From assembly GCF_000217715.1 (NCBI RefSeq), contig NC_015666.1, forward strand, positions 2,864,270 through 2,928,269: a stretch of DNA of 64,000 bases, read 5' to 3'. The position numbers and the translations under genes are program-made. Source of the stretch: Halopiger xanaduensis SH-6 (GTDB lineage Archaea; Halobacteriota; Halobacteria; Halobacteriales; Natrialbaceae). The notes beneath the pieces were generated by a model. That model did not search any database. It was not told where the DNA came from and saw only the letters and a list, made by a program, of their open reading frames with translations. Positions 7,830 through 16,771 of this stretch are shown here, piece after piece (position 1 is the stretch's first letter; each line of letters opens with the position of its first letter).

Positions 7830-9317
7830 CTACGTTTCGCCGCCGTCCCCGCCGCTCGAGTCGCGGTCCGGCTGCTCGGCCGCTCGGTCCGTCGCCGATG
7901 CGGCCGACGCAGTTGCGGGTTCGCGCTCCCCCTCGCCGCCGGTTGTGGAACCAGGTGTCGATTCGGGTGCGGACTCGAGTTCGGCGTCCCCGTCGACGGT
8001 CGGACTGCCGTCTCGCTCGAGGCCGAGAACCGAGTAGAGCCGTGCAGCGATGCCGTCCCACAGTCCGGATTCACCCGCGGCGGTCGGATCCGGACTCGAG
8101 GCGTCGTTCTCCCCGTCTGTCTGCGTCCGGTCGAAGACGAACTCCGCGTCAGATTTCGTGCCATCATCGGCCGCCTTCGTCCCCGTCTCCCCCTCGAGCG
8201 TCGGCGGTTCGAACACGTACACGACCCCCTCGCGGCGGACGACGTACCGGCCCGTCCGCCGGTCGAAGACGATCGGTTCGTCGACGTCGATCCCGAACTC
8301 CGCCAGATCCGCGAGCGTGTCGACGCTCGCGCGCTCGCCCTCGAGTTCCGACTCGGGGAGCGCGATCGATGCGATGACCTCCTCGAACTGGGCGCGGTCG
8401 TCGCGGTACGCGAGCCACTCGCGTTCGGCGGCCGTCGGCTCGGGGACCCGGACGGCCGCGACGGCGGCGGCGATCGTTCCGGCGAGTCCGAGTGCGAGGA
8501 GCCCCAGGCCGGCGAGGGGCGGATCGGGGTCGTCGCCGGCGACGGTGACCGTCTCGTACGTTTCGTACTGTTCGTCGTACGTGTCCGCCGTCTCGATCCG
8601 GTACGTGGCGCCATCGTGCGTGACCGGGATCCGGAAGCGGTCGCTCGCCGTCCGGTGTTCGCCGTCGACGGTCCCCTCGATCTCCCGGCGAACCTCGAGC
8701 GCGATTTCGGTTTCGCCGGGACTCGTGCCGAGATCGGATTCGATCTCGGCGATCCGCGCGTCGATCGCGGAGACGTTGAGGGAGAACGGCGCGGCGACGG
8801 ATTCGCCGGGCGCGACGCCGTCCTCGCTCGCCGCGGCGAGGCGTTCCCGCTCGCTCCAGTAGACGAGGTCTTCCTCGGGATCGACCGCTCGGTAGCGGAC
8901 GTCGACGGCGATATCGACGCTGACGTTCTCGCCCGCGTCGGCGTCGTAGCCGCCGACGAACTCGCCGTCGACCGTCGGCGTGACGCTCGTGTAGTAGAGC
9001 GGTTCGTTCTCGAGGACCGTTCCGGCGTCGTAGACCGCGGTCGATTCGTGGACGGTCGCGCCGTGGGAGAACGACCCCGTCGCAGTCCAGCGGTGCTCGA
9101 GTCGCTGCTCGGTTTCCGTCCCGGAATCGGCGTAGGCGCCGTAGGTCAGCCATCCGCCGAGCGCGGCCACGAGCACGAAGCCGACCAGCAAGAGGACGCC
9201 GTACTCCGCGAACAGCGCGCGGAGCCGTAGTCGTCGTTCCGCTGTCGTTCCCGTCGCATTCGATTCTCGATCCCCCGTTGCTGCCGATCCGTCGGTCGCG
9301 TCAGTAGGCGTAGTCAT
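7830..9317 (-). CDS. DUF5305-type membrane protein of the SipW-like signal peptidase locus
   Basis: A 495-residue membrane protein. A cytosolic N-terminus (about 35 residues) leads to a transmembrane helix near 38-62, then an exported beta-rich domain of about 210 residues, a second helix near 275-297, and a cytosolic C-terminal region with REWLAYRDDRAQFEEVIASI and a compact ending GRYVVRREGVVYVFEPP before a disordered acidic tail. This is the DUF5305 layout as I know it. Its ATG follows the TGA of the signal peptidase gene by one base, so the two are translationally coupled and the proteins probably act together in processing or assembling exported substrates. Function otherwise unknown. Confidence 0.8.
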   Translation of the reverse strand: MTTPTDATDGSAATGDRESNATGTTAERRLRLRALFAEYGVLLLVGFVLVAALGGWLTYGAYADSGTETEQRLEHRWTATGSFSHGATVHESTAVYDAGTVLENEPLYYTSVTPTVDGEFVGGYDADAGENVSVDIAVDVRYRAVDPEEDLVYWSERERLAAASEDGVAPGESVAAPFSLNVSAIDARIAEIESDLGTSPGETEIALEVRREIEGTVDGEHRTASDRFRIPVTHDGATYRIETADTYDEQYETYETVTVAGDDPDPPLAGLGLLALGLAGTIAAAVAAVRVPEPTAAEREWLAYRDDRAQFEEVIASIALPESELEGERASVDTLADLAEFGIDVDEPIVFDRRTGRYVVRREGVVYVFEPPTLEGETGTKAADDGTKSDAEFVFDRTQTDGENDASSPDPTAAGESGLWDGIAARLYSVLGLERDGSPTVDGDAELESAPESTPGSTTGGEGEREPATASAASATDRAAEQPDRDSSGGDGGET

Positions 9318-9318
9318 G

Positions 9319-10497
9319 TCAGTACCACCTCCGAACGATCGATCGCAGTCGACCGCGTCCGCCCCGCCGACGGGCCCGGTCCCGCCTCGAGCGCGGATCG
9401 ACCGGCCCGAGCAGGAGCCGGCCCAGTCCGTAGAATCCGCCGCCCAGCAGCGAGACGATCGCGGCGTAGGGTACCCACGGGTGGACGGCGTACAGCGCGT
9501 CGATGACCGACGGCGGGAGGACGGCCAGGTACCGGTACTCCGTGACGTACGCCGGATAGTAGCCGGTCTCCGCCGGCGCCGTGATCGAAAGCGTCACGGT
9601 CGCCTCGTCGCGCGGACCCACCACCGAGGGGCCGTCGTCGACGGCGACGCTGTCGCTGCCGGGTTCGACGTACGAGACGACGGGAACGAACCCCCGATTC
9701 CCGATCGCGTAGGGAATCTCGTCGGTCGTTCCCCGCTCGATCACCATCGGCCGGTCGGAGTCGAACTCGGCGCTGATGACGTCGTAGGACTGGGTCCCGG
9801 CCGGGACGACCATCGCCGCGACGGCCGCGACGACGACCAGTAACGCTAACCCGCCCGCGATCAGTCGCGGATCGAGTTCCGAGTCCTCATCTTCGTCGCC
9901 GTCGCGCTCGAGCGACGATCGGATCGTCGTTTCGCGGCGCTCTCGAATCGTCTCGGCTACGTAGAGGACCAGCGATGCGGCCAGCAGCAGGTACGCCAGC
10001 CCGCTCGTGCCGACGAACGAGCGGATTCCGAACGTGACCGCGAGCCAGCGCTGGGTCCGCTCGAGGGTGTCGCTGAGCGTCGTGACGGCCGTCCCGAGGT
10101 TCGGAATCGTGACGACCTCGCCGTTTACCTGCAGGGCGGTCGCGACGATCTGGCCGTCCTGAACCGGCGGCTCGTCGCCGTCCTGGTCGGTGAAGGGGTT
10201 CGCGTCGCCCCGCGTGACGTACCCCCGGTCGGTTTCCTCGACGATCCGGTGGGTCGTCAGGCCCCCGCCGTGGAGTTCCTGCGCCTGGAAGACGACGACG
10301 TCGTCCGGTTCCGGCTCGCCCGTCAGGGCTGCGGGAACCGCGACGAACCCGTCGCCCGTCTCGATCGTCGGCTCCATGCTCCCGGTTTCGACGAACCCCA
10401 GAAGGATCGGCTGTCCGAGCAGTTGCCCGGCGACCAGCGCGACGACGGTGACGAGCACCAGCGCTTGCGCCCCCCGAACGACCCCCCGTCGAATCAT
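9319..10497 (-). CDS. SipW-like signal peptidase I (S26B) with extra exported domain
   Basis: A 392-residue archaeal/ER-type signal peptidase. Helix 1 spans about residues 10-35; catalytic Ser40 lies in ETGSMEPTIETGD; LTTHRIVEE gives His83 and TRGDANPF gives Asp98. His in place of the bacterial Lys defines the ER/SipW class. After a second helix (near 150-170), a third (about 207-227) is followed by a beta-rich exported domain of about 90 residues, a final helix and a very basic tail, which is much longer than the usual 200-residue enzyme. In-frame TTG (10515) and GTG (10506) starts exist; the AT-rich box at about 10526-10533 favours GTG or the ATG chosen here. It lies in the same locus as DUF1102-type substrates. 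Confidence 0.85.
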   Translation of the reverse strand: MIRRGVVRGAQALVLVTVVALVAGQLLGQPILLGFVETGSMEPTIETGDGFVAVPAALTGEPEPDDVVVFQAQELHGGGLTTHRIVEETDRGYVTRGDANPFTDQDGDEPPVQDGQIVATALQVNGEVVTIPNLGTAVTTLSDTLERTQRWLAVTFGIRSFVGTSGLAYLLLAASLVLYVAETIRERRETTIRSSLERDGDEDEDSELDPRLIAGGLALLVVVAAVAAMVVPAGTQSYDVISAEFDSDRPMVIERGTTDEIPYAIGNRGFVPVVSYVEPGSDSVAVDDGPSVVGPRDEATVTLSITAPAETGYYPAYVTEYRYLAVLPPSVIDALYAVHPWVPYAAIVSLLGGGFYGLGRLLLGPVDPRSRRDRARRRGGRGRLRSIVRRWY

Positions 10498-10627
10498 CGT
10501 GTGCACCTGAGCCAATTATGTCGTTTTATTTGTCTGTTAGGGTCGGTTACCTGTTTCGCCACTATCCGCGAGTCGGGTTCGAAACCGGTTTTCGCGTCGC
10601 TGTTTACCCACATGCGTTGAAATACTG

Positions 10628-11989
10628 TCAGCCCCGTGCCCGTTTACGGAGTGACGCGATGAGCGCCAGCATTCCGACGACCGCAACGAGTGCTGGGTTG
10701 CCGCTGCTGTCGGCGGATTGGGAGTCGGCGTCTGAACCGTCGGCGTCGGTCGCGGCACTGTCATCGGCCGATCCGTCGGAATCTGCGCTCGAGTCGGGAT
10801 CGTCCTCGGGAGATGCGTCGGGCGCATTCGGAACGCCGACGATACCGCTCGAGAGGGAATCAACCGTGACGGTCGCAGTGTATCGGTCGGTATCGGTCGG
10901 CTCGTCATCCTCCTCGGTTCCGTCGCTGTCCCCTGTTTCCGTCTCGTCGGCCGCCTCGAGCGCGCGACGTTCGGACGTGCCGTCTCTGGGGAGGTAGAAC
11001 CCGAGCGCGGAGCCGTTGTCACTGCTCGACGACGCGTGTTCCGCGAACCGGTCGCGATCGACGGTAAACCGGTACTCGACCGATTCGATCGCCGCGGCCG
11101 GCGGCGCGTCCTCGACGGCAACGGCACCGATCGTCGACGCGTCGGCCGGCCGCGGGTGCGGTTGTGCTCGCTCGTCTCCCTTCTCGCGGCTGCGGTCAGC
11201 ACGAACGTCGAAGGTCGCATCCTCGGCGTCGCCGAACTGGATCGTGACGCCCTCGAGGACGACGCTCTTGCCGACCCGGAGCGATCCGAGGTCGATCGGA
11301 ACCGTTTGCTCGCGGACGTCGCTGACGGTAACGGTTCGAGTCTTCGAATCGGGTTCGACGACTTCTACCGCCGGCGACGGGCTCGAGGTCGACGAGTCCG
11401 CGCCGCCGTTGGAATCGGTGCCAGAGGACGAGTCGCCACCGTCGTCGTTCTCGAGACCTCTCGTGTGGAACCGGAGCGACTCGATCACGGCCTCCCCGGC
11501 CTCGAGATCGCGAGCGTCGACGACGAACCCGACGTGGACCGACTCCGCGGGCTCGAGGACGGCGGCTTCGTTCGCGCCTTCGATCGAGTCGCCACCGTCG
11601 GTTCGGAAGGTGACGCTTTCCGCGTCGTGCTCGAGCCAGACCGTCGCGGACTCGTTGCCCTCGTTCCTGAGCGTGACCACGTCGTCGATACCGGTCACCG
11701 CCCCGGCGGAGACGCCGTCCTTCTCGAGGGCGTCGTTATCGACCGTGAGATCGATCACGAGCTCGCCGTCGCCGTCGAGGTACGCGTAGGCGCCGTTCGG
11801 TCCGTCGTGCGGTTCGGCGACGATGCCGGTTTCGTTTCCGAGGTCGTCGTGTCCGTGTAGCTGGTCGCGCATTTCCGGGTCGTCCTCGGCCGAAAGAAGC
11901 CCTGCGTCGGTGGCGACGACGCCCGTGCCCACCACTCCGATCGTGAGCAAAACGAGCACGATCCACCGACTCGCCGCGGCGCTGGTCAT
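10628..11989 (-). CDS. Exported, C-terminally anchored protein with DUF1102-like N-terminal domain
   Basis: A 453-residue surface protein. The signal/anchor SRWIVLVLLTIGVVGTGVV (7-25) precedes a beta domain of about 160 residues with VVTLRNEGNESATVWLEHD and LEPAESVHVGFVVD, the pattern of TasA/CalY-like and DUF1102 proteins (jelly-roll strands, 'NEG' turns). After a serine/glycine/aspartate linker comes a second beta domain (about 210-350) resembling PGF-pre-PGF domains, another acidic linker, and a C-terminal hydrophobic helix with basic end (LVAVVGMLALIASLRKRARG), a sorting-tail layout but without a clear PGF motif. It lies just upstream of the signal peptidase gene on the same strand and is a likely substrate. 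Confidence 0.75.
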   Translation of the reverse strand: MTSAAASRWIVLVLLTIGVVGTGVVATDAGLLSAEDDPEMRDQLHGHDDLGNETGIVAEPHDGPNGAYAYLDGDGELVIDLTVDNDALEKDGVSAGAVTGIDDVVTLRNEGNESATVWLEHDAESVTFRTDGGDSIEGANEAAVLEPAESVHVGFVVDARDLEAGEAVIESLRFHTRGLENDDGGDSSSGTDSNGGADSSTSSPSPAVEVVEPDSKTRTVTVSDVREQTVPIDLGSLRVGKSVVLEGVTIQFGDAEDATFDVRADRSREKGDERAQPHPRPADASTIGAVAVEDAPPAAAIESVEYRFTVDRDRFAEHASSSSDNGSALGFYLPRDGTSERRALEAADETETGDSDGTEEDDEPTDTDRYTATVTVDSLSSGIVGVPNAPDASPEDDPDSSADSDGSADDSAATDADGSDADSQSADSSGNPALVAVVGMLALIASLRKRARG

Positions 11990-12110
11990 CGAACTCGTCG
12001 CCCCCCGTTTGGTGGTACTCGCGTGCGCATCGTCGTCGATCAGTCCCGTTCTCGTGGTCGGTCCCCTCGCCCCGATCGTCGTTCGGTCCTGCCGGTCGAT
12101 CGCGAATCGA

Positions 12111-12512
12111 TCACTCGGCGCGTTCGCTGCTCTCGGCCTCGCTCACCCAGACGCGGACTTCGGAGACGAGCTGCCGATCCTCGTCGACGCCGTCGATGTC
12201 GTAGTCGACGTGCAGGTAGGTGACCTCCCGCTCCTCGACGACGTAGGTCGGCGGCTCGCGTTCTTCCTGATAGCTGACCGCCCGATTCTCGAGATTCCCC
12301 TCCGCGTGCGCCTCGGTAAACGAAAGTCGGTCGCCGACCGCCGGAATCGCCAGCGTGTCGGCCTCGTAGACCGTCTCGAGGAGTTCGTTCGTGCCCGCCT
12401 CGTAGACGTACAGCGAAATATGGTCGTACGTCGCCTCGAGCGTCGGTCCGCGATTTCGATCGGGCTCCTCGTCGTCGCTTCCGGAATCGTCGTCGGTCTG
12501 TGGTGTTGCCAT
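12111..12512 (-). CDS. Hypothetical haloarchaeal protein
   Basis: A 133-residue soluble acidic protein. After a disordered Asp/Glu start of about 22 residues it alternates short strands: LEATYDHISLYVYEAGTNEL, then AIPAVGDRLSF, then TYVVEEREVTYLHVDYDID and RQLVSEVRVWVSE. This suggests a small beta fold. No signal peptide or enzyme motif is visible. It sits between the exported-protein genes of the SipW-like island on the same strand, so a role in that locus is possible but unproven. Confidence 0.65.
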   Translation of the reverse strand: MATPQTDDDSGSDDEEPDRNRGPTLEATYDHISLYVYEAGTNELLETVYEADTLAIPAVGDRLSFTEAHAEGNLENRAVSYQEEREPPTYVVEEREVTYLHVDYDIDGVDEDRQLVSEVRVWVSEAESSERAE

Positions 12513-13277
12513 ACGTAAATTCGTCCTCGAGTAGCGTCGTTACTTGGAAAGCGTCGTCCGCAGTCGGTTACGCGGTCGGTTCGCGTGTTCTGCACCGACG
12601 GCGACTGCGCGCAGTCGTGCCGGTAACTGGTACTGGTATCGAAACAGGTGGCAGTGCGGTCTCTCCCCACCGTGAACTGCGAGCGCCGATCGGACGGCCC
12701 CGGTCGGAACTGTAACTGCGTGCGGTCGGCGTCGGCGCGGGCTCGCCACGTCCCACCCCCGTCGGACACGGCGATCTGCCGACCGCCGACGCCGATGCCG
12801 CCGTGGTGATCGGGTTCGGGGTTGCGATACGGGGTAGCTTCGATGTCGACTCTGCAGTCGGAATTGGAATCGGATTCGGGTTCGGGTGCGTGTCCGAATT
12901 CGGGTGCATCGGAGCGTCCCGCGGAACGCGGGTGCAGCCGTTCCGCAGGTCCCGCCTCGAGACATCCCCCTGGGGGCTCGAGGCCGTTGTGGTCGGGTCG
13001 GATCGCTCGACATCGTCGCTACCCGATTAGGCGGTACCGGGCTACGGTTATTGTAATACGGCTGTTGACTAGTTCTGGTTGCGGTCAATGACCCATGTTG
13101 GGTTCGTTCTGAGTATCATTGACCAGGATCTGACGGGGAAGAGCACGCCTGCTTGAAACCGATATTGATCTTGAGTGGAATCAGAACCATCCGGTCGACG
13201 CAAGGACTGAGATTGCCCCTCTAAATAGGCGATCGACACTGAAAAGAAGCGAATATACCGAGACCAATAACGGTCCC
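12513..13277. other. 765-base intergenic region with repeats and a possible decayed ORF
   Basis: No intact gene is supported. About 12855-12905 is a run of near-repeats of GGAATTGG/GGATTCGG/GGTTCGGG hexamers. At 13049-13060 is TATTGTAATACG, a near copy of TATTGTAATGCG at 14458-14469. Half-sites follow: GTTGACT at 13064-13070, the palindrome GGTCA-A-TGACC at 13083-13093, and ATTGACC at 13118-13124. From 13152 to about 13276 the plus strand is open, lower in GC and reads LETDIDLEWNQNHPVDART, possibly the remnant of a mobile-element gene (weak). Confidence 0.5.
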
Positions 13278-13844
13278 TCAGTTGGTGGGATCGTCGATCT
13301 CCGCGTAGACCGTCGCAGTCCCGTTGTACGAGTTGGTGGTGGAACCGTCGGGCTCTACGTCGACATCGCCCGTTTCGACGTAGACCCCGATAGATTCCGT
13401 CGTCCCGGAATCGATCTGGAGGGCACCCGCATCGCCGTCCAGCGGCGTGTCGCGGGCGCCGTCCTCGTACACGTAGACGTTTGCGAGTTCGTCGTTCCCG
13501 TTGACGAACGTACCGAGCCCACCGACGTAGAAGTGCACCGTGTCGGTGCCCTGATTGGTGACCTCGAAGACGCCGTCGAAGTGGTACTCCGAGTTGCCGC
13601 CAACGCCGTGGCCGCCGCCATCGTTGGTGATCCCGTTGATGTCGAAGATCTTCAGCCGACCGTTAGGATCAACTTCCGAGTGGGAACTGCTTGACTCGAG
13701 CGCCAGATAGGCATCGGCGTCGTCGGCCAGCTCGGCGGTAACGGTCCGCTCGGCCTCGACGCTGTCAAACGCGCCCGTACCGATTGCGGCCGCACTACCG
13801 GCGGCAAGGGAACCGACCCCGATGACGAATTTCCGGCGGTGCAT
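13278..13844 (-). CDS. Secreted SipW-substrate-like protein (DUF1102 / TasA-like), copy B
   Basis: A 188-residue exported protein. The leader HRRKFVIGVGSLAAGSAAA has a twin-arginine (RRKF) and ends in IGTGAFDSVEAERTV, the haloarchaeal counterpart of the SipW-type leader, where cleavage precedes or lies in GTGAF and the mature chain begins with DADAYLALE. The mature part is a beta-sandwich-like domain with FEVTNQGTDTVHFYVGGLG and a C-terminal strand TNSYNGTATVYAEID. It is rich in D, T, G and N with no membrane anchor. It starts two bases after the stop of copy A, so the two are co-translated. I infer a filament or matrix subunit processed by the signal peptidase at 9319-10497. Confidence 0.8.
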   Translation of the reverse strand: MHRRKFVIGVGSLAAGSAAAIGTGAFDSVEAERTVTAELADDADAYLALESSSSHSEVDPNGRLKIFDINGITNDGGGHGVGGNSEYHFDGVFEVTNQGTDTVHFYVGGLGTFVNGNDELANVYVYEDGARDTPLDGDAGALQIDSGTTESIGVYVETGDVDVEPDGSTTNSYNGTATVYAEIDDPTN

Positions 13845-13846
13845 CG

Positions 13847-14329
13847 TCAGTTGGAGTTGGCCTCGATGACGAGCGTCTCGCTGGCGTTTTCGTCAACGTC
13901 GTCGTTGAGATCGTCGACCGTCACGTCGAGGGTGACCGAATCACCGGGCTCAAGCTCGTCACTGTGGCTCAGTTCGAAGTCAACGGCACTCTGGACGTCG
14001 GTCTCGTTGATCGAAACGGTAACGTTCTCAGTACCCTGGTTCGTGATCGTCACGACGTCACTGACTTCGGTCACCGCGTTCTCGTTGAACCCTTCGCCGT
14101 CGTTGCTGTTCGTCGGGCCGCCGAGGTCGATCGTGAGCTCGCTATCGCTCGAGTCGTCCGTCACGTACTCGCCGTCGCCCGTGATCCCGAGATACGCGTC
14201 GGCGTCGCCAGCCGTCGAAACCTGCACGGTTCGGTCGGCCTCGACGCTATCGAACGCGCCCGTACCGACGGCTGCAGCGGTTGCCATTGACAGTGCTACC
14301 AGTGCGATGACGAATTTTCTCCGTTGCAT
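13847..14329 (-). CDS. Secreted SipW-substrate-like protein (DUF1102 / TasA-like), copy A
   Basis: A 160-residue paralogue of the following gene. The leader QRRKFVIALVALSMATAAA then VGTGAFDSVEADRTVQVST matches copy B closely; the mature domain has DADAYLGITGDGEY, VVTITNQGTENVTVSINETD and LEPGDSVTLDVTVDDL, the strand pattern of TasA/CalY-type beta-sandwich proteins. N-glycosylation sequons (NVT, NET, NAS) occur. It is the first gene of the pair; a tentative promoter is the AT-containing CATTACAATATCC on the minus strand near 14455-14466, which would give a leader of about 110 bases. TTGAC palindromes lie farther upstream. Confidence 0.8.
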   Translation of the reverse strand: MQRRKFVIALVALSMATAAAVGTGAFDSVEADRTVQVSTAGDADAYLGITGDGEYVTDDSSDSELTIDLGGPTNSNDGEGFNENAVTEVSDVVTITNQGTENVTVSINETDVQSAVDFELSHSDELEPGDSVTLDVTVDDLNDDVDENASETLVIEANSN

Positions 14330-14415
14330 GGTTGGATGTTCCGTTGTTGTCTGCGTTTGGTGGTCGTCTACCGCGAGCGGCTACACGTCGCGTTGTACGC
14401 CACCTCGTCGTTGAC

Positions 14416-14428
14416 CCCCGTCGCGGGG
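14416..14428. promoter_or_regulatory. Short GC hairpin upstream of the secreted pair
   Basis: CCCCG-TCG-CGGGG forms a compact stem between the proposed promoter and the start of copy A, and it directly follows a GTTGACC half-site at 14410-14416. It would lie in the 5' leader of the mRNA if the promoter near 14460 is correct. Role unknown. Confidence 0.35.
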
Positions 14429-14549
14429 ATCACATTGCACCGGTGTCCAGCAAGGGATATTGTAATGCGCTCGTGGAGTTGATTTCAGCATTCGATGGTG
14501 GGCAGTCAATCCGCTGCCGACCGAACTGATCCAGCAGTGGTCGATCCGT

Positions 14550-14751
14550 TGACTCGAGTCACCCACTCTCAGCCGACCGTAGACTGTGGTCCCGCTGTAG
14601 TTGACTCGCGGTCAACCGCCTCGAGCCGGCACTGGAGACGCCCGCCTATTCACAGTTGACCGTGGGTCAACTGGGTACTGACAACGTAGTTTGAACCGGT
14701 ATATCGTCGGTTGAACGGCTCACCGATCCGGTAGTTGTCCCGTTGACCAAC
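14550..14751. promoter_or_regulatory. Cluster of TTGAC/GTCAA palindromes (operator-like)
   Basis: Four related sites lie in the divergent region between the secreted pair and the winged-helix regulator gene: TGACTCGAGTCA (14550-14561, perfect palindrome), GTTGAC-n5-GTCAAC (14600-14616), CAGTTGACC-gtg-GGTCAACTG (14653-14673, perfect 9-base arms) and GTTGACCAAC (14742-14751). The shared half-site TTGAC(C/T) also occurs at 13064, 13118 and 14410. The clustering suggests one regulator controlling the island; the adjacent DUF7344-type protein is the obvious candidate. Everything else in 14330-14863 is non-coding. Confidence 0.65.
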
Positions 14752-14814
14752 TCGATAGAATTCCGAACGAACGGGAGTTCCGATAAGTTTCGGATTGATC
14801 AGACGCAATTATTT

Positions 14815-14837
14815 ATTGGTAGGCCAATACTTTTATT
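14815..14837 (+). promoter_or_regulatory. Promoter of the winged-helix regulator gene
   Basis: TTTTATT at 14831-14837 lies 27-33 bases before the ATG at 14864, the position of a TATA box for a leaderless transcript. Just upstream is an inverted repeat ATTGG-TAGG-CCAAT (14815-14828), possibly a further operator. The stretch 14755-14840 is clearly more AT-rich than its surroundings. Confidence 0.6.
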
Positions 14838-14863
14838 CCATGGTGTGATACGGCCTATCCGTA

Positions 14864-15577
14864 ATGGGGGCGACTCACGCGAAACCGTCCGGGGGAACTG
14901 ACTCATCGAAAGCGAACGTGGACACGAAATCGAACACGGAACTGGGGACGGATGCAGGTGACAGGGCAGGCAACCAATCGGATGCGACCGGCACCGAACC
15001 GATCCTCACCGAGGACGAACTCTTCGAGATCCTCTCGAACCGACGTCGGCGTCACATCCTGCACGAGCTCATGCGCGAGGGGGACACGCTCGACATCGGG
15101 ACCCTCTCCCAGCAGATCGCCGCCTGGGAGGACGGCCTCGAGCTCCACGAGGTGACCAGCAGCGACCGCAAGCGCGTCTACACCGCCTTGCACCAGTCGC
15201 ACCTGCCGAAGATGGACGAGGCGGGCGTCGTCGACTTCAACCAGGACCGGGGGACCGTCTCGCCGACGCCGGCGCTCGAGGACGTCGAGATCTACATGGA
15301 CATCGTGCGCGGGCGCGAGATTCCGTGGAGCGATTACTACCTGGGGCTGACGGGGCTGTCCGGCCTACTGCTCGCAGCCGTTTCTCTGAGTCTCGGCCCG
15401 TTCGCGGCGATCTCCCACGCCTCGTGGGGCGTCTTCGTCGTCGTCGCGTTCGGCATCTCGGCGCTCGCACACCGGTACTACGCGCGTCGGAACCGGCTGG
15501 GGATCGCCGAGGAGCCGCCGTCGTCGGATCTCGAGTTCGAATACCGGGATCCGACCGACGCCGGAACCGAGCGGTGA
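14864..15577 (+). CDS. Membrane-anchored winged-helix regulator (DUF7344 type)
   Basis: A 237-residue protein. After about 45 disordered residues comes a winged-helix domain: LTEDELFEILSNRRRRHILH, GDTLDIGTLSQQIAAWEDG, then RKRVYTALHQSHLPKMDEAG and VVDFNQDRGTVSPTPA, which is the haloarchaeal DUF7344 pattern (about residues 48-135). Two hydrophobic helices (about 158-178 and 184-203) follow, with an acidic tail, so the DNA-binding domain is tethered to the membrane. It is divergent from the secreted TasA-like pair across a region full of palindromes and is followed by another secreted protein gene. I infer it regulates this island, perhaps in response to envelope state. Confidence 0.82.
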   Translation: MGATHAKPSGGTDSSKANVDTKSNTELGTDAGDRAGNQSDATGTEPILTEDELFEILSNRRRRHILHELMREGDTLDIGTLSQQIAAWEDGLELHEVTSSDRKRVYTALHQSHLPKMDEAGVVDFNQDRGTVSPTPALEDVEIYMDIVRGREIPWSDYYLGLTGLSGLLLAAVSLSLGPFAAISHASWGVFVVVAFGISALAHRYYARRNRLGIAEEPPSSDLEFEYRDPTDAGTER

Positions 15578-15688
15578 GACGAGCGGATTCCGACGGGCGA
15601 AAACGGACGTGCCGACGGCTATGCCGATACAACGGGTGAGCGACAGTCAAATAGCGGATCGATACCGACGCCGGAAGCGGCGACAGTC

Positions 15689-16771
15689 ATGAAACGGACG
15701 CGACGCGCAGCGCTTGCGATGCTCGCCGGCTCGAGCGGCCTCCTCGCCGTGGACACGCTCGGATTCTCGAGCGGCGGCGCCGAGCGTCCCGTCGACGTCG
15801 AGGTCGTCAGCGACGCGGACGCGTACCTCGGACTGGTCGACCGCGACGACTCGACCGACGGCGTCGAAACGGGCGGCGTTCTGTTCGAGGAATCGTCGAA
15901 CGACGACCGCTATCCGCCCGCCTCGTTCGAGGTCGTCAATCAGTTGACCGAGCCGATCGCGCTCTCGCTTACGCTCGGGGACGATCGGCTGCGGTTCGTC
16001 GACCTGAACGCTGAGGGTCGCATCGAAGGCGATCACGGACGGCGGCTCCCCGACGCCGACCTCGAGCCCGGCGACGAAATCGCGCTCGCGATCGATCTGT
16101 CGCTCCCGTCGGAACGTTCGACGGCGATCGACCTCGACTCGATCACGACGACGCTCGAGATCGACGCTGCGGGGTCGGCGACCAGCGTCGAGGCCGAACG
16201 AACGCTCACCCTCGTCTCCGACGTGTGGGCCGTAATCGACTGCTGCGCCGCCCGCGGTTTACCCGAGGGGCTGGTCGTCGTCAGGAACCGTCGACTCGAG
16301 GACGACCCATCGCTGGTCGTAGAGTGGATCGACTGCGGGGACGGGACGGCTTCCGTCCTCCGCGAGATCACGTCGTTCCCGCCGCCGAAGCTGAAGCTGT
16401 CGCTTTTCGACGATCGTCGGTCTCGAACGGGCGGCGCTAGCGCTCGTCTTCAGGCGGCCGGGAACGACGCGGAGTCCGATCCGGAGCGCGAGACTGAACC
16501 GACCGTCGCTTCCGCGGACGACGTCGCCCTCGATGTCGATCGTGGCGGACCTTCCCGTTCGAAGTCCCGAACGCGTTCGACGGCGGATAGCGCCGGTTCC
16601 AGTACCGCCGACGGCAATCGATCGGCAACTAGATCCGACGCCGACGATTCGTCCGCCTTCGTCGTCGAGATCGATCCCGAACCGGACGCCGACGCCGAGG
16701 GGGCCGACTCGAGACGCGTCGAAACGGTCGACGTGTCGGCCGATTCGATTTCCGGAGAGAGCGGGGGGTGA
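15689..16771 (+). CDS. Secreted DUF1102-like protein with long disordered tail
   Basis: A 360-residue exported protein. The leader RTRRAALAMLAGSSGLLAV (twin arginine, then hydrophobic) is followed by PVDVEVVSDADAYLGLVD, the same opening of the mature chain as in the secreted pair at 13.3-14.3 kb. The domain continues through FEVVNQLTEPIALSLTLGDD and LEPGDEIALAIDLSLPSE to about residue 175, then a short segment with DCCAARG and a long S/D/R-rich tail that is probably disordered. No anchor helix is visible. It is downstream of the regulator gene by 111 bases and is probably part of the island. Confidence 0.72.
   Translation: MKRTRRAALAMLAGSSGLLAVDTLGFSSGGAERPVDVEVVSDADAYLGLVDRDDSTDGVETGGVLFEESSNDDRYPPASFEVVNQLTEPIALSLTLGDDRLRFVDLNAEGRIEGDHGRRLPDADLEPGDEIALAIDLSLPSERSTAIDLDSITTTLEIDAAGSATSVEAERTLTLVSDVWAVIDCCAARGLPEGLVVVRNRRLEDDPSLVVEWIDCGDGTASVLREITSFPPPKLKLSLFDDRRSRTGGASARLQAAGNDAESDPERETEPTVASADDVALDVDRGGPSRSKSRTRSTADSAGSSTADGNRSATRSDADDSSAFVVEIDPEPDADAEGADSRRVETVDVSADSISGESGG

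Follow-up and report, generated by a model that had tools for sequence, protein, structure and literature searches.

A probable branch II gene cluster of the haloarchaeal Tat-fimbriae kind in Halopiger xanaduensis SH-6

Identification of the gene cluster

A 64-kb stretch of the Halopiger xanaduensis SH-6 genome (hereafter the window) contains, at 7.8-16.8 kb, a divergent and complete-looking gene cluster, which we assign, with a probability of somewhat under nine in ten, to the haloarchaeal Tat-fimbriae (tafi) and, within them, to branch II, one of two groups formed by the associated signal peptidases (see below). These thin surface filaments, distant relatives of the fibres in Bacillus biofilms, have been described recently (Galeva et al., iScience 2025; cited in PMC12687288). 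This type of filament is already known and the structure of one of its members has been solved; the window cluster adds a member.

The minus strand is transcribed in the order P0006, P0005, P0004, P0003, P0002 and P0001, while a divergent plus-strand pair consists of the regulator P0007 followed by the secreted protein P0008 (Table 1). All open reading frames (ORFs) of the locus are intact, and they comprise the gene set of tafi, i.e. pilins, a TafC-like and a TafF-like protein, an S26 peptidase, a DUF5305 protein and a DUF7344 protein. The grouping is not due to chance: within the window, the family profiles match only ORFs of this locus, and the same gene set recurs across dozens of genomes.

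Table 1. Features of the tafi-like locus (window coordinates)
Feature	Coordinates	Strand	Evidence
P0001, DUF5305 membrane protein	7830..9317	-	Pfam PF17231 E=3.8e-63
P0002, type I signal peptidase, Sec11/SipW (Ser-His-Asp) kind	9319..10497	-	TIGR02228 E=2.3e-13; SipW NF046067 E=3.9e-9; PDB SEC11A E=8e-4
P0003, TafF-like subunit, candidate base/anchor	10628..11989	-	NF052523 TafF E=8.9e-12, below cut-off; hhalign to pilin profile 99.6%
P0004, small ORF	12111..12512	-	homologues in L041, L056, L132, L138, L141
Second ATTGTAAT copy, then GTTGAC...GTCAA	13050..13057	.	upstream of P0004-P0003-peptidase-DUF5305 genes
P0005, Tat-signal TasA-like pilin	13278..13844	-	TafE E=3.6e-14, DUF1102 E=2e-4 (both below cut-off); phmmer to 9p0a E=1.1e-10
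P0006, Tat-signal TasA-like pilin, candidate major subunit	13847..14329	-	TafE E=3.8e-16; AlphaFold2 and Foldseek to 9p0a, 7ueg
ATTGTAAT, core of conserved promoter-like element	14459..14466	.	~130 bp upstream of pilin start codon; also in pilin/DUF7344 intergenics of related branch II clusters
GTTGAC/GTCAAC inverted-repeat cluster, candidate operators	14529..14760	.	hexamer count in intergenic
P0007, DUF7344 winged-helix-type regulator	14864..15577	+	PF24035 E=3.6e-29
P0008, TafC-like secreted protein	15689..16771	+	NF052521 TafC E=1.4e-9, below cut-off; hhalign to pilin profile 98.1%

An earlier note on this DNA had described a SipW-like peptidase, its partner, an anchored protein, several secreted proteins and a regulator within 9 kb, and had taken them for a haloarchaeal equivalent of the TasA/SipW system. 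All of these parts are present where they had been placed. The idea was right in substance and withstood the two tests set for it, on fold and on co-occurrence, but the system is not new, being already known as tafi (NCBIfam TafA/C/E/F; PDB 9p0a). Three features go beyond that description: the Tat signals, the small conserved ORF P0004 and the kinship of the anchored protein with the pilins. PADLOC gave a single weak match (E=0.008) and Rfam, searched over 7.0-17.5 kb, none; a literature search on the Taf names, on TasA and haloarchaea, and on the Natrinema pilus yielded nothing further.

The tandem pilins

Judged from sequence profiles and a structural model, P0005 and P0006 are members of the tafi pilin family. 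Both carry the pattern RRKFVI...GTGAFDSVEAxRTV...DADAYL, with the twin arginine at positions 3-4, i.e. the Tat signal of tafi pilins. The earlier note had attributed GTGAFxSxxAxRxV and DADAYL to three secreted proteins; P0005 and P0006 have the full motif, but P0008 reads TLGF in place of GTGAF and retains only the second half (FSSxxAERxV and DADAYL).

Among 81 pilin homologues, the twin arginine is conserved in 80-81, A25 and R33 in all 81 and F26 in 80. All relatives found are haloarchaeal. At E<=0.001, every one of these family members matches TafE of NCBIfam and 79 of them match TafA, while matches in Pfam are confined to DUF1102; no member matches the camelysin/TasA family. When the profile of the 81 sequences was compared with PDB sequences, it gave one strong match, to 9p0a ('Pilin', E=4.5e-32).

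The AlphaFold2 model of P0006 is beta-sandwich-like, with a mean predicted local distance difference test score (pLDDT) of 82 and a core mostly above 90. Foldseek ranked 9p0a ('Structure of Natrinema sp. J7-2 Tafi pilus', E=8e-6) first among PDB entries and the Pyrobaculum bundling pilus 7ueg (E=2e-3) second, and the Sulfolobus acidocaldarius thread 7pnb came fourth. Pyrobaculum bundling pili have been described as related to TasA fibres (PMC9905601; PMC9674648). The second match is in keeping with the expected likeness to TasA-like proteins; TasA itself was not among the 50 matches listed. This fold comparison concerns the P0006 model, while the kinship of P0005 and P0008 is drawn from sequence profiles.

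The signal peptidase and its DUF5305 partner

P0002 had been recognized as a SipW-class peptidase with Ser40, His83 and Asp98, which agrees with its match to the SipW family and with the invariance of the three residues in an alignment of 11 peptidases. With regard to TIGR02228, it exceeds the cut-off in the genome search (52.4 bits) and falls just under it as a protein (50.3 bits). P0002 starts with MIRRG; an in-frame TTG would lengthen the ORF to 10515. By position, P0002 is probably TafD. It also carries an extra C-terminal extracytoplasmic region between predicted transmembrane segments, which is present but divergent in 11 aligned relatives and shorter in one of them.

The proposal that a DUF5305 protein is translationally coupled to the peptidase likewise fits the locus: P0001 matches the family clearly, and its gene starts 1 bp after the P0002 stop, which is consistent with coupling. 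P0001 is laid out as a predicted transmembrane helix, a large beta-rich ectodomain (about 65-260), a second transmembrane helix and a small cytoplasmic domain. Its AlphaFold2 model has a pLDDT>=90 over 315 residues and matched no PDB fold at E<=0.001, nor did DUF5305 give anything convincing against PDB sequences. Kir-channel and arrestin domains listed for the model were rejected as meaningless (query TM-score about 0.15). P0001 is a probable assembly or anchoring factor, a guess based on co-occurrence.

Conservation of the gene set in haloarchaea

Co-occurrence was followed from two starting points. Around DUF5305 genes, 60 regions of 20 kb were sampled from genomes of the same family; 59 of them contained an S26 peptidase, 58 a Taf-like secreted protein, 51 a DUF7344 gene and 50 the whole set. 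A scan of named genomes seeded with the peptidase gave 80 loci, and in the 60 of at least 18 kb that were counted, DUF5305 was present in 56, DUF7344 in 58, a Taf-like secreted protein in 60 and the whole set in 54. Almost all haloarchaeal regions examined unite the secreted proteins with the peptidase and DUF5305, a co-occurrence whose absence would, according to the earlier note, have refuted its idea. These counts show conservation and not independent events, since the loci share a common descent.

In 41 genomes, 100 of the 116 TafE-like matches lie at most 12 kb from a DUF5305 gene, versus about 1% expected by chance. The commonest gene order is regulator, pilin(s), TafF-like protein, peptidase and DUF5305, and other orders occur. 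DUF5305 itself was found in 92 of the 101 genomes of the family examined.

Relationship to named tafi and the two branches

TafA exceeds its NCBIfam cut-off in 21 of 242 Halobacteria genomes, whose loci hold the same kinds of genes. One such locus, L106, was checked in full: it contains TafA (251 bits), TafE (225 bits) and TafC (568 bits) together with DUF7344, an S26 peptidase and DUF5305, and a TafF-like ORF adjoining TafE was seen by eye. In L106 the genes follow each other as A, DUF7344, C, S26, which suggests that DUF7344 corresponds to TafB and the peptidase to TafD. A second link to the named system is the cluster L066, which has the layout of the window cluster and a pilin 92% identical to that of 9p0a.

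A first tree of 111 peptidases (FastTree) suggested two groups. In a careful tree of 63 of these sequences they stand on opposite sides of one branch with support 98/95; the root was not inferred. As the first tree had served to define the groups, the second is a check of robustness and not an independent test. All clusters linked to named tafi, whether through TafA or through kinship with the solved pilus, lie in branch I; the window lies in branch II. Both branches occur in at least 15 sampled genomes (G005, G007, G008, G011, G013, G016, G021, G023, G026, G030, G033, G041, G048, G056 and G069), as found by comparing the tree with the genome of each locus. The genome of H. xanaduensis has a single DUF5305 gene and therefore branch II only.

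Judged from these sequence comparisons, branch II is apparently a lineage uncharacterised so far, and this is the part of our results that is possibly new; it may already be described in the tafi paper. As a tentative proposal, to which we give somewhat less than even odds, branch II would be a second tafi lineage that, in many species, makes a separate filament in addition to that of branch I, with its own DUF7344-controlled promoter bearing GTTGAC/GTCAAC operators and with DUF5305 as an assembly factor of undescribed fold.

Other proteins of the cluster

P0003, which had been noted as an anchored protein, indeed has a hydrophobic C-terminal tail and is related to TafF. In the profile alignment, its pilin-type domain lacks the RxVxV donor segment; because of this and its C-terminal tail, we propose it as a candidate base. 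P0008 has a Tat-type start and a long acidic tail, which is probably disordered. The regulator P0007, whose gene is divergent from the pilins, has hydrophobic segments in its C-terminal half, in keeping with its earlier description as membrane-anchored; by position, it is probably TafB. P0004 has no Pfam or NCBIfam match, and its homologues were seen only in a handful of branch II clusters.

Some related clusters contain additional genes. In some branch II clusters, the gene of the TafF-like protein is separated from that of the peptidase by one for a polytopic membrane protein of some 300 aa (L143:7754-8659, L073:11392-12288); a rhomboid-like reading of these proteins, made by eye, was not confirmed, as there was no Pfam match. 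In a branch I cluster, a TafC-like protein carries a bactofilin domain (L078:14115-15506, E=1.5e-8). Natrinema-type branch I clusters have a large protein between regulator and pilin (L078:9669-12767, DUF7289; L074:6418-8412), a candidate adhesin. Elsewhere in the H. xanaduensis genome (G000:C3:3520734-3523415; L124:8635-11316), an 893-aa Tat-type protein begins with a pilin-family domain, to which GIFT/DUF4350-like and staphylococcal-nuclease-like domains are fused, and its gene adjoins a second DUF7344 gene.

Candidate promoter and operators

The conserved candidate promoter/operator, recognized from sequence comparison, is a new observation. The 534 bp that separate P0006 from P0007 (14330-14863) hold 7 GTTGAC/GTCAAC hexamers, versus 34 in the whole window, and the core ATTGTAAT is found both there and ahead of P0004. 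The consensus TATTGTAATAC followed by CGTGGA is common to 25 distinct pilin/regulator intergenics of the sampled loci. The enrichment is not an independent test, since the motif was found as an enriched word in the same, related sequences.

Proposed filament assembly and alternatives

Based on these observations, we suggest that P0005 and P0006 would be folded and then exported by the Tat pathway; TatC genes are present in the genome. P0002 would then cleave GTGAF between A25 and F26, a site that resembles the cleavage site used in TasA, in the account given in PMC10269814. Of the 215 residues in the 9p0a sequence, 188 are modelled in the chain; provided that its C-terminus is complete, this number would be compatible with a start at Phe28. 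The freed N-terminal strand FxSxxAxRxVxV may insert into the next subunit, giving a filament held by donor-strand complementation as in TasA, whose donor strand comprises residues 28-38 (PMC9674648). P0003, having the same domain without the donor segment and a C-terminal membrane anchor, would form the base of the filament, and P0008 may be a TafC-type accessory or tip subunit. P0001 would serve as a membrane assembly factor, and P0007, encoded divergently, would regulate through the GTTGAC/GTCAAC repeats that lie between its gene and the pilins.

Several points weigh against this assignment. The Foldseek TM-scores for P0006 are moderate (0.54, 0.49), and no window protein reaches an NCBIfam Taf cut-off, the best score being 59 bits versus 155 for TafE. 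P0006 is our candidate for the major subunit, which could also be P0005. Expression and filaments are inferences, as are the cleavage site, donor-strand exchange and the function of the operators. As for the cut-offs, they are set for equivalogs, so that the window proteins are not strict TafA/C/E/F equivalogs and may still be of the wider kind; the L066 pilin likewise remains below the TafE cut-off (77 versus 155 bits).

The secreted proteins might have the pilin fold and yet form no filament of their own, acting as surface-layer-associated or matrix proteins matured by the peptidase. Several clusters have only one or two small secreted proteins, at times fused to other domains. On the other hand, a pilin of the same family was solved as a pilus subunit (9p0a), with a close relative in a cluster of the same layout, and conservation extends to the cleavage site and to the segment that is probably the donor strand; we regard this explanation as unlikely.

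A little less likely still, the window cluster could be a non-functional or minor-subunit remnant, with the major pilin encoded elsewhere. The genome has no TafA above the cut-off, and a same-genus relative, G024, has a third pilin interrupted by TAG after two intact ones (G024:C2:1255912-1256064). However, no ORF of the window cluster is broken, tandem pilins are normal in branch II, and a third, decayed pilin sought in the gap at 12.4-13.2 kb was not found. The genome has no second DUF5305 gene and only one other TafE-like protein, the 893-aa multidomain one.

The least probable alternative, to which we give very little weight, is a Sec-exported TasA/SipW system transplanted from or shared with Bacillus: the SipW-like peptidase match, the TasA-type A/F site and the TasA-like fold group would fit it, but the essentially invariant twin arginine, DUF1102 as the sole Pfam family and the haloarchaeal range of the relatives speak against it.

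Comparison with known systems and significance

Returning to tafi, the window cluster shares with the named system the Tat-signal TafA/TafE-like pilins, the TafC-like and TafF-like proteins, the S26 peptidase, DUF5305 and DUF7344 in one cluster. It differs in that its proteins score under the curated cut-offs, its gene arrangement is unlike that of Haloarculaceae-type clusters and its peptidase belongs to the sister branch II. The pilin of the Natrinema sp. J7-2 Tafi pilus is homologous, and the cluster L066, which holds its relative, has its genes in the same order (regulator, pilin, TafF-like protein, peptidase, DUF5305); that cluster is of branch I with one pilin, whereas the window cluster is of branch II, with a tandem pair of pilins, P0004 and a promoter element of its own.

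With the TasA/TapA/SipW fibres of Bacillus, the cluster has in common a dedicated Sec11/SipW-like Ser-His-Asp peptidase, an A/F-type site and a probable N-terminal donor strand. However, TasA of Bacillus is exported by Sec, whereas the window proteins have Tat signals; there is no detectable common sequence family, and TasA was not among the listed fold matches. The Pyrobaculum calidifontis bundling pili and the Sulfolobus threads resemble P0006 in the fold search (ranks 2 and 4), but neither gives a sequence-level match to the pilin profile.

Surface filament systems that probably assemble by donor strand and have their own peptidase are close to universal in the family examined and often present in several copies. 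Most of these copies are not captured by the curated tafi families and would go down as hypothetical proteins in annotation. The roles of DUF5305 and DUF7344 become directly testable, and a candidate regulatory site is provided. The finding strengthens the view that the biofilm fibres of archaea and bacteria have a fold in common and differ in their export route.

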